Positions 44,801 through 47,448 of a stretch of 64,000 nt of DNA are shown one piece after another. Positions within the stretch are counted from its first letter, which is position 1. The number at the start of each line of letters is the position of its first letter. The notes beneath the pieces are model-generated. The model was not told the origin of the DNA. It searched no databases and saw only the letters and a program-made list of their open reading frames with translations. A program made the position numbers and the translations under genes. Location of the stretch: the NCBI RefSeq assembly GCF_002154335.2, contig NZ_MTPX02000075.1:62001-126000 (forward strand), read 5' to 3'. The DNA comes from Actinomyces ruminis. GTDB taxonomy: Bacteria; Actinomycetota; Actinomycetes; Actinomycetales; Actinomycetaceae.

Positions 44801-45061
44801 GTGGCGAACATCAAGTCTCAGATCAAGCGCATCAAGACCAACGAGAAGGCCCGCCTGCGCAACAAGGCCGTCAAGTCCGAGCTCAAGACCTACGTGCGTC
44901 GCACGCGCGAGGCCGTTGAGGCCGGTGACAAGCAGGCCGCCGAGGAGCACCTGCGCAAGGCCTGCCGCAAGCTGGACAAGGCCGTCTCCAAGGGCGTCAT
45001 TCACCGCAACCAGGCCCGCAACCGCAAGTCCAAGCTGGCCAAGCGCGTCAACGCCATGTGA
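44801..45061 (+). CDS. rpsT: 30S ribosomal protein S20
   Basis: The 86-residue, Lys/Arg-rich protein starts [20 protein letters not shown] and contains [15 protein letters not shown], all typical of S20, which binds 16S rRNA in the small subunit. The start is GTG. About 230 bases without a gene precede it and should hold the promoter. A clear terminator follows. In many actinobacteria rpsT lies next to lepA or holA; here both are elsewhere. Confidence 0.96.
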
Positions 45062-45083: not shown

Positions 45084-45127
45084 GAGGAGGGGCGTCTCTC
45101 ACCGGAGGGGCGTCCCTCCTCTTTTTT
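45084..45127 (+). terminator. Intrinsic terminator of rpsT
   Basis: An 8-bp stem (GAGGAGGG 45084-45091 with CCCTCCTC 45114-45121) is followed directly by six T (45122-45127). This is the only classical hairpin plus T-tract I see in the window. Confidence 0.85.
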
Positions 45128-45212
45128 CTGCCTCCTTCCTGGGTTAGCGGCGCGATCGTGTTGCTTAAGTGCTGCGTGCCGGGAGGATGGGCGCCGGCAG
45201 CCTCCTCCCCTG

Positions 45213-45343
45213 TTTGGACCGCTGTCCCCTGTTTGGACCGTGTAAGTCCATTTGGACCGCTTGCCCCTGTTTGGACCGCCGTTGTGTGCAACTGGGGCGG
45301 TCCAAACGACGTAAGAGGTCCAAACCGACGTAAGGGGTCCAAA
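45213..45343. repeat. Fold-back array of TTTGGACC repeats, 19-bp spacing
   Basis: TTTGGACC occurs four times in direct orientation, starting at 45213, 45232, 45251 and 45270 (exactly 19 apart). It then occurs three times inverted (GGTCCAAA) at 45299, 45317 and 45336 (18 and 19 apart). The innermost pair extends to an 11-bp perfect stem (GTTTGGACCGC 45269-45279 with 45297-45307). A small GTTG-TGTG-CAAC hairpin lies inside its loop. The spacers are only partly alike. No ORF is credible here. It could be a protein-binding array or a structured RNA. Confidence 0.85.
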
Positions 45344-45457
45344 CTCGGGGTGGCGCGGCGCCATGAGCGGCTGGGCTGGAGGTGCGTCTGGCCGGGCGGT
45401 GGCAGGCAGGGGCGGGCGGCCCGGCACCAGGCGACGCGGCGGCAGACGCCACGACGT

Positions 45458-45584
45458 CTCTCACGTACGCGTTCGCCTCTCACGTACGCGTTTTGGAGGT
45501 TTGCCCGTGCCAGAACCCCGTAGAACTCCAAAACGCGTGCGTGTGGCGGAAAACCGTACGTGAGGCAGAAAGTCGTACGTCAGG
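45458..45584. repeat. Fold-back array of CTCACGTACG repeats, 19-bp spacing
   Basis: CTCTCACGTACGCGTT occurs at 45458 and again at 45477, exactly 19 bases apart. Inverted, less exact copies of the core (CGTGCGTGTGG, CGTACGTGAGG, CGTACGTCAGG) start at 45536, 45555 and 45574, again 19 apart. The arms meet in a 13-bp perfect stem (ACGCGTTTTGGAG 45486-45498 with CTCCAAAACGCGT 45526-45538). The architecture copies that of the neighbouring TTTGGACC array, but the repeated word is different. Confidence 0.85.
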
Positions 45585-45960
45585 CGATGCCCGGGTGCCA
45601 GCGTTGAGTGCCGGGAGTGATCGGCGCGCGCCTCGGCGCTGTCAGCACCACCCCTAATTAGCGGCGCTCCGTGTTTGGGGACGTGGTCGTTCAAGCTGAG
45701 GCTGCGGTGGAGTGATCATATTCGGGCCTGGGAGGCCGTCCTCGGGCACACAAGGACGTCGTCAGCACCGGACGGGCCCCATCCACAGCGGCCCCGCGTC
45801 TCGCGGCCCACCCCCCTCCACAGACCCCGGAGTTTGACCGGGCGCGTCGGGCTTCCATCCACCGGACCCGTTCTATTGGCAGCGGCCGATGGCGTTACGA
45901 TTCGTCAGGCCGGCGCCCTCCCGCTCGGCCGCACCATTGAAGCGACCGCGAGGAGAACGC
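45585..45960. other. Non-coding stretch upstream of the DUF1846 gene
   Basis: I see no credible gene here. It contains a second copy of TTAGCGGCGC (45658-45667; the first is at 45144-45153) and, near 45715-45730, a more AT-rich stretch (GGAGTGATCATATTCGGG). The promoter of the DUF1846 gene should lie in its distal part. Confidence 0.5.
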
Positions 45961-47448
45961 ATGCGTATCGGGTTTGATCGGGACAAGTACCTCAAGATGC
46001 AGTCCGAACGCATCGCCCAGCGGCGCGCCCAGTTCGGCGGCAAGCTGTACCTGGAGTTCGGCGGCAAGCTCATCGATGACATGCACGCCTCCCGCGTACT
46101 GCCCGGTTTCACCCCCGACAACAAGATCGTCATGCTCGCCGAGTTGGCCGACGACGTGGAGATCATCGTCGCCGTCAACGCCAGGGACTTCGCCCGGCAC
46201 AAGATCCGCGCCGACCACGGCACCTCCTACGAGGACGAGGTACTGCGCCACGTGGATGCCTTCCGCGACTACGGGCTGTATGTGGGCAGCGTCGTGATCA
46301 CCCAGTGGACGGACGACAACCAGCAGGCCGCCGAGTTCAAGCGCAAGTTGGAGAAGCTCGGTATCACCGTCTACCGTCACTACCCCATCCCCGGCTACCC
46401 CAACGACGTCGCCCGCATCGTCTCCGACCAGGGGTACGGGCGCAACGAGTACATCGAGACCAGCCGCGATCTGATCGTCGTCACCGCACCGGGGCCAGGC
46501 TCGGGCAAGATGGCCACCTGCCTGTCGCAGATCTACCACGACCACATGCGCGGCATCGCCTCCGGATACGCGAAATTCGAGACCTTCCCCATCTGGAACC
46601 TGCCGCTGGACCACCCGGTAAACATCGCCTATGAGGCCGCCACCGCCGACCTCGACGACGTGAACATGATCGATCCCTACCACCTGGCCGCCCACGGCGT
46701 GCAGACGGTCAACTACAACCGCGATGTCGAGGTGTTCCCGGTACTGTCGCGCCTGTTCGAGCAGATCATGGGCTCCTCCCCCTACGCCTCCCCCACCGAC
46801 ATGGGGGTCAACATGGCCGGCTACTGCATCAGCGACGACGAGGTCTGCCGGGAGGCATCCAAGCAGGAGGTCATCCGCCGCTACTACAAGGCGCTGGTCA
46901 CTGAGAAGCGGGACATGCTGGAGCCGGTCCAGTCCGGACGCATCGCGCTGCTGATGAGCAAGCTCGGCATCGCCAAGGAGGACCGTCCGGTGGTGGTACC
47001 GGCGCTGGAACTGGCCGAGGTGACCAAGGCGCCGGCGGCCGCCATCGAGCTGCCGGACGGGACGATCGAACTGGGCAAGACCTCTCCGCTGCTCGGGTGC
47101 TCCTCGGCCATGCTGCTCAACGCCCTCAAGCGTCTGGCCGGCATCGACCCGCAGGTGGACCTGCTGGCCAAGGAGTCGATCGAGCCGATCCAGACGCTCA
47201 AGACCCGTCATCTGGGCAGCCGCAACCCGCGCCTGCACACCGACGAGGTCCTGATCGCGTTGGCGGTGTCCGCCAACGGGGACACCAATGCCGCCCGGGC
47301 GCTGGACCAGCTGGGCAGCCTGCGCGGCTGCGACGTGCACACCTCGACCATCCTCGGGAGCGTCGACGAGGGGATCTTCCGCGCGCTCGGCATCCAGGTG
47401 ACTAACGAGCCGGTCTTCGCCACGAAGTCGCTCTACCGGAAGAAGTAG
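45961..47448 (+). CDS. DUF1846 (UPF0371) family protein
   Basis: The ATG at 45961 follows GAGGAG. The 495-residue protein has the usual family length and matches the opening [18 protein letters not shown] and [25 protein letters not shown]. Further family-like segments are [14 protein letters not shown], the glycine loop [21 protein letters not shown] and [18 protein letters not shown]. Structures of the family show nucleotide-binding-like folds, but the reaction is not established. The GPGSGK loop suggests phosphate or nucleotide binding. It lies directly before the FMN riboswitch, with no evident link to riboflavin synthesis. Confidence 0.9.

Follow-up and report, generated by a model that had tools for sequence, protein, structure and literature searches.

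The window, a stretch of 64,000 nucleotides of the Actinomyces ruminis genome, contains a gap between two forward-strand genes that is occupied by several repeated features. The upstream gene (44801..45061), which we take to be rpsT (the name given in the preliminary description), is followed on the same strand by a hairpin with a T run (45084..45121), called terminator-like by a terminator scan; it lies between rpsT and the first array, where the preliminary description had placed the rpsT terminator. The downstream gene (45961..47448), presumably DUF1846-like, has matches in 46 of the 49 genus genomes and served as the anchor for locating the orthologous gap. Between them, array A (45213..45343) is composed of seven TTTGGACC words separated by steps of 19, 19 and 19 bp, a central step of 29 and steps of 18 and 19 bp. 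Its left arm (45213..45277, forward strand) carries four words at 19-bp steps, starting at 45213, 45232, 45251 and 45270; the centre, or dyad (45278..45298, with no strand assigned), is 21 nt long and is equivalent to the place where the ends of IS481-like elements occur in the arrays of relatives; the right arm (45299..45343, reverse strand) carries three inverted words starting at 45299, 45317 and 45336. Once re-located in the window, the word positions, the spacings and the mirror point near 45288 all proved to be as first described.

Two further features of the gap were absent from that description. The first is the end of an IS-derived element: a terminal inverted repeat of the GGGTTAGCGGCGCGATCGTGTTGC type (45141..45165, forward strand) that belongs to an IS1249-derived miniature element and starts 72 bp outside array A, the remnant of this array-bearing IS1249-type element extending from 45141 to about 45443 on the same strand. 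The second is array B (45460..45583, no strand assigned), which begins 117 bp past array A and consists of two CTCACGTACG words, a centre step of 57 and three inverted words (at most two mismatches), with 19-bp steps; its word is unrelated to TTTGGACC. A segment comprising the right part of array A together with array B (45295..45747, forward strand) recurs on contig C88 of this genome, where the second copy is 98% identical.

The regularity of array A is far from random. The window holds 10 copies of TTTGGACC against 0.82 expected, and 10 or more were found in none of 100 shuffles; moreover, Tandem Repeats Finder called a period of 19 for both arms, and the array strand folds at -76.7 kcal/mol (z -6.4), a value equalled by none of 200 shuffles. 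Arrays of this form are able to fold as a long hairpin or cruciform. The shuffles and the arrays recognized in the fetched stretches of the genome bear out the initial characterization of array A as a non-random, fold-back, strictly periodic and intergenic feature.

A dispersed family of mirrored arrays

The A. ruminis assembly comprises 3.41 Mb in 99 contigs and is 83% complete. When the 181 bases around array A were used as query, 81 matching pieces were retrieved from this genome (E <= 0.001), and in the stretches fetched around them at least 37 A arrays were recognized, a centre step of 29 and at least four words being required. All follow one plan, in which n words spaced 19 bp apart and n inverted words enclose a centre of 21 nt, and are thus, like REPs, an intergenic palindromic repeat present in many copies; one of the 37 shares 104 bases with the end of a predicted gene. 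The arms contain 1-7 words, mostly 3-4, often in unequal number on the left and right, the steps are 19 bp, rarely 18, and the arrays span about 75-210 bp. The centre step of 29 was a search condition for these 37 arrays; a condition-free listing also gives a centre step of 29 in all 37 two-orientation clusters, with the array of locus L022 split into two halves, and adds one cluster (L059) with a single orientation only. In 5 of the 37 arrays GTTGGACC or CTTGGACC words are found (L024:3750, L034:1858, L050, L051 and L062). The preliminary description held that only the word and the period are conserved, and this stands for the units within one array; among genomic copies it does not, since the spacers also resemble one another (76-94% identity at the best-matching places).

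Distribution and turnover among Actinomyces

By DNA similarity, the array family was found in 7 of the 49 genus genomes. A stricter search used the exact core, defined as two words, a 21-nt centre and two inverted words, with both lengths fixed in the pattern. This core is present in 9 of 213 family genomes, every one within the genus Actinomyces, so that the recurrence in related genomes anticipated in the preliminary description was confirmed. The 127 cores are distributed as follows: 31 in A. ruminis, 30 each in G010 and G024, 15 in G025, 10 in G041, 7 in G028 (Actinomyces ruminicola DSM 27982), 2 in G032 and one each in G017 and G027. A reversed-pattern control gave no match in any of the 213 family genomes, and arrays also occur in the single-contig genomes G024 and G025; together with the shuffles reported above, these results leave a negligible probability that the arrays are a product of chance or assembly.

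A conserved gene unites A. ruminis with G028, G041, G024, G034, G010 and G025 at 93-99% identity. The family is represented by dozens of copies in several genomes of one Actinomyces clade, in which the lengths of the arms differ by whole 19-bp units; G034, although a member of this clade, has no exact core. Individual positions are not stable. In the rpsT gap of G010, G024, G025, G034 and G041, the homologies flanking the gap are only about 50-145 bp apart, compared with 700-800 bp in A. ruminis, and there is therefore no array, or no room for one, in these five relatives, while the contig of G028 starts within the gap. Array A is thus not a special element of the rpsT gap alone: it is one copy of a dispersed repeat. 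Comparison by eye of other gaps gives a varied picture. In the gap presumably flanking ndk, an array is present in A. ruminis and absent from G028, G034, G041 and G024; in the gap that we take to be rplL-rpoB, A. ruminis has a TTTGGACC array, G028 an array of the GGTCCAAG type, G024 a GTTGGACC array, G034 a single word and G041 no array; the array beside locus L045 is common to A. ruminis and G028. For copies consisting of an array only, no empty site was clean enough to reveal an insertion duplication. In G025 (L076:2692-3108), an arm has expanded into a series of about 19 units with a 19-bp step, and a GGTCCAAC-type word is still recognizable in 16 of them.

Furthermore, no similar DNA was found in 72,556 plasmid or 50,697 phage records, and the exact core pattern has no occurrence in IMG/VR; on these searches, a phage or plasmid origin was ruled out.

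Association with an IS1249-type miniature element

Alignment of the copies showed that homology runs past the array, to GGGTTATCGGCGCGAGCGTGGTGC as the left end and its inverted copy as the right end. Five longer copies possessing both ends (four in A. ruminis, one in G028) measure 565-631 bp, the others 314-521 bp. In A. ruminis, an IS1249-type terminal repeat is located 60-88 bp outside the array in 22 of the 37 copies, that of the window included. Equally good matches occur elsewhere in the window at a rate of 8 per 126,572 strand-positions, so that about 0.1 would be expected against the 22 observed. The remaining 15 copies have no terminal repeat there (2 have a distant one, and in 13 none occurs up to 700 bp away), and either another mode of spread or the loss of ends is therefore needed for them. 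The window copy itself is one-ended: its homology to the other copies stops at about 45443, and the right end of the IS1249-type element was not seen.

An intact relative of these elements exists. In G025, a 1372-bp IS with ends of the same kind encodes a transposase that scores 388.8 bits against the NCBIfam IS1249 model (cut-off 300). A. ruminis has a decayed IS1249-type copy, interrupted by IS3- and ISAs1-type genes, whose pieces score 121, 104 and 26, below the cut-off. Exact 8-bp target duplications flank 3 of the 4 intact IS copies inspected. One array-bearing 819-bp element of G010 (L194) has an 8-bp target duplication as well, and at least one array has therefore moved as IS1249-type cargo; none of seven two-ended elements tested in A. 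ruminis carries an 8-bp duplication, and one has 6 bp. The arrays of G027 lie within another, unrelated element, which is about 1 kb long and is bounded by inverted repeats of 60 nt, and two G025 copies have in common 623 bp that start at the array edge.

Gene-gap context, folding and pairing

The gaps that contain arrays were classified with a home-made gene finder, two of the 37 A arrays being dropped because they have one neighbour only. The A arrays occupy 18 tandem, 11 convergent and 6 divergent gaps (35 in total) and the B arrays 7 tandem, 9 convergent and no divergent gaps (16 in total), while the element-free gaps of at least 100 bp at the same loci number 68 tandem, 6 convergent and 22 divergent (96 in total). 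Convergent gaps thus account for 11/35 A and 9/16 B arrays versus 6/96 element-free gaps of at least 100 bp and 17/166 of any length. This bias is compatible with promoter avoidance and with use as a terminator alike.

A transcribed hairpin, with an RNA role as a two-way terminator or as an RNase III substrate at the 3' ends of genes, would account for the excess of convergent gaps and for the strong folds, and the pairing between the two arms bears directly on it. Pairing was analysed in 86 distinct cores of the 127, some drawn from fetched loci, with subfamilies oriented by resemblance to reference centres. The free positions pair at 67% in register (Watson-Crick pairs 57%) and at 35-61% (Watson-Crick 23-35%) when slid by 1-4 positions, and changes on both sides concern 15 of 19 pairs in register versus 4-10 when slid. 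Within subfamilies, double changes number 0-2 in register versus 0-3 slid; since they are no commoner than when slid, the pairing signal lies between subfamilies. It sits in the centre stem and in the bases adjoining the inner word, and in the outer spacer (positions 8-14) pairing is no better than in shuffled columns. When G-T pairs are counted, the A. ruminis subfamily pairs slightly better slid by +3 (64.0%) than in register (61.9%); with Watson-Crick pairs only, the true register reaches 53% versus 22-33% slid. Three copies from G017 and G032 have differing but fully complementary spacers.

The rungs were also examined as units, by shuffling the right-arm units of 70 elements, and no rung-specific compensation was detected: the words give 36 mismatches versus a mean of 37.3 (p 0.12) and the spacers 680 versus 675.6 (p 0.85). 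With the bases of the inner spacers shuffled, mismatches increase from 339 to 471. As the shuffling of units is neutral and that of bases harmful, the arms are complementary as sets and not rung by rung, and strict rung-by-rung RNA covariation was ruled out. Of the covariation that the preliminary description proposed to look for in the rungs, in-register pairing between subfamilies was found, without an excess of double changes within subfamilies or rung-specific compensation. A strand test based on G-T versus A-C pairs was set aside because slid controls were equally biased. No Rfam family reaches its cut-off for array A, the only hits being to MIR839 with 22 and 18 bits (cut-off 200), and a known Rfam RNA was ruled out by these scores.

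The complementary changes of the centre stem between subfamilies are thus a further point for a transcribed hairpin. Against it stand the lack of compensation at single rungs and of double changes within subfamilies, the absence of an Rfam match at cut-off, the terminator scan, which found no terminator-like site at the arrays, and the A arrays located in six divergent gaps; in addition, the gap bias may equally reflect selection against insertions into promoters. We consider such an RNA role improbable.

Unrelated words on a similar design

Array B belongs to a family of its own, with 16 arrays and about six further weaker places in A. ruminis. A scan for mirrored arrays with steps of 14-30 bp over 853 kb of fetched loci gave 106 arrays at 19 bp (control 23), 26 at 20 bp (control 1) and 7 at 21 bp (control 4), and no other step yielded more than 3 (with controls of 8 or fewer); the peak at 19 bp is biased, most loci having been picked for their arrays, while the 20-21-bp families were not picked for. 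Among the latter, the ACGGTTCGT arrays (L021:2778-2928, L084:2026-2210 and L110:453-605) are mirrored step by step; in L021, where they are most regular, the steps are 20, 21, 20, then 20 across the centre, then 20, 21, 20, and they are close to these values in the others. The TTGCACGACC arrays (L039:2638-2744, L170:646-752, L171:2626 and L174:2146-2252) have steps of 20, 20, a centre of 17 and again 20, 20, and the CGAGGACG arrays are less regular, with a step of about 20. That two families with unrelated words have the same 19-bp step, and other families 20-21 bp, points to a constraint on geometry for which a mere passenger would have no use. Direct 23-bp repeats of the GATCTCGGCACGTAACTTCTACC type were also noticed in gaps of relatives (L091:1899-1977, L212 and L213), with no mirror visible by eye.

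An alternative is a phased binding array, in line with the seven helically phased protein sites offered as an option in the preliminary description: every word would be bound by a host nucleoid-associated or chromosome-organising protein, and the mirrored 19-bp array would serve to load it as an oligomer. The step and the length of the centre are constant despite the differing centres of the subfamilies (both lengths are fixed in the search pattern, but the condition-free listing from A. ruminis agrees), and the words lack rung-specific compensation, as expected of protein sites rather than of paired RNA. Copy number and location, however, vary between close relatives, the words vary between families, and G034 lies within the clade and is devoid of an exact core, so that a host binding array is in our judgement unlikely, if marginally less so than a transcribed hairpin.

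IS481-like insertions at array centres

At eleven contig ends of A. ruminicola (G028), an array meets, close to its centre, the end of an IS about 1.49 kb long. The 453-aa protein of this IS scores 65.7 bits against the NCBIfam IS481 model (cut-off 224), so that "IS481-like" is a weak designation. Exact 15-bp duplications (16 bp in one case) flank 12 of 16 two-ended copies; the other 4 have none. Junctions between this IS and array centres, for the most part with a constant spacing, are found at L243-L255 and L304-L306 in A. ruminicola and at L287-L302 in G041.

In a scripted test, which counts IS ends rather than independent insertions (two G028 ends have the same flank), all 13 ends of G028 lie in A arrays; the distance to the inner word is exactly 13 or 23 nt for 10 ends, and 4, 12 and 32 nt for the remaining three. 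Since 13 + 23 equals 21 + 15, the two main distances are the two sides of one insertion site. The three ends of G024 are likewise all in A arrays (13, 20 and 23 nt), as are 3 of 8 in G025 (13, 13 and 23 nt), where the other five are outside A and B arrays. In G041, 6 of 19 ends are in B centres; despite differing centre sequences, each of the six has a distance of exactly 21 nt to the inner repeat. The other 13 are outside both kinds of array, the patterns for B arrays having been written after the flanks had been viewed. Here 21 + 21 equals 27 + 15, and the insertions of G041 in B are therefore centred on the dyad. No end was found in A or B arrays in G032 (0/14), G034 (0/4) or G010 (0/3). 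Outside the scripted test are single ends of G028 and G032, three ends of G034 and all 24 of G027; by eye, one more end each in G028 (L306) and G041 (L290) is also at an array, and one copy each in G010 (L307) and G034 (L325) is at ACGGTTCG arrays. The centre of the array is thus a precise landing site for this IS in some relatives. In A. ruminis, no end of the IS481-like element was found within two mismatches.

The fold z-scores of the target sites are strong for the two array targets and one other, and near zero or positive for the rest; most target sites outside arrays have no hairpin beyond chance, and the IS therefore does not need one everywhere. On contig C39 of G028 (L246), a second type of IS occupies the same spot at the array centre. 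A further repeated sequence, TTGTCCAAATCTGCCACAAAGGC, is frequent in the flanks of the IS481-like copies of G032 (L316-L322).

Origin of the arrays and relation to known systems

From these data, array A is probably a fold-back repeat derived from mobile DNA, without a function specific to its locus. Arrays would have spread mainly as cargo of IS1249-type miniature elements and by some other route in the case of copies without a visible element end; their arms may lengthen or shorten via slippage or unequal recombination, and copies would persist by settling away from promoters. The IS481-like element, for its part, may read the folded or mirrored geometry of the centre. A broader proposal, which we put forward only tentatively, is that of a class of bacterial foldback elements independent of the word, in which a geometry of mirrored units, each about two turns of the helix long and arranged about a short centre, is kept and read by the IS481-like transposase, hairpins or cruciforms are extruded in vivo, and the words turn over between families.

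In bacteria, REP-type palindromic repeats are associated with RAYT transposases (PMC2817692), and IS elements that insert into REP sequences have been described (Tobes and Pareja, 2006; PMC1525189). REP/BIME sequences (PMC2817692; for REPINs, PMC3116915) are like the arrays in being short palindromic intergenic repeats that occur by the dozen in a genome and are IS targets. Arrays mobilized as REP/BIME-type palindromes by a REP-associated tyrosine transposase (RAYT) would share with REPs an intergenic position, a palindromic structure, multiple copies and the role of IS target (PMC1525189 and PMC2817692). Unlike REP/BIME, the arrays have tandem words of about 20 bp mirrored about one centre, in variable unit number; their unit is a tandem 19-bp word array and no single REP. 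Moreover, a Y1 transposase (PF01797) was detected in none of the 49 genus genomes, that of A. ruminis being 83% complete, while 5 of 14 controls were positive, a result that largely rules out mobilization by a RAYT and makes this origin highly improbable. The IS481-like element resembles the IS that insert into REPs (PMC1525189) in its preference for an intergenic palindromic repeat; it differs in being IS481-like, in inserting mostly at a fixed distance from the inner words, and in doing so in two families with unrelated words and varied centres.

With the miniature elements (MITEs) of the IS256/IS1249 group, the arrays have in common the IS1249-type terminal repeat around 22 of the 37 A. ruminis copies and the 8-bp duplication of the G010 element; unlike them, they also occur without such ends and in the unrelated element of G027. 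Among eukaryotic elements, the FB foldback elements of Drosophila have inverted arms made of short tandem repeats in variable unit number, and the arrays resemble them in both traits; they differ in being bacterial, about 75-210 bp long in A. ruminis and without a known transposase of their own.

The clade is thus rich in repeats in which several unrelated words share one mirrored design of about 20 bp, without a detected RAYT, and the exact placement of IS481-like elements in the centres of two families is a natural record of whether palindromes fold inside cells. No description of these arrays was found in the open-licence library searched, which does not imply their absence from print. A related pattern was noticed in a metagenome-assembled genome, Actinomycetes bacterium ZJ1.bin61, where three GGTCCAAA words follow one another at 19 bp in a single orientation (L108:3682-3727).
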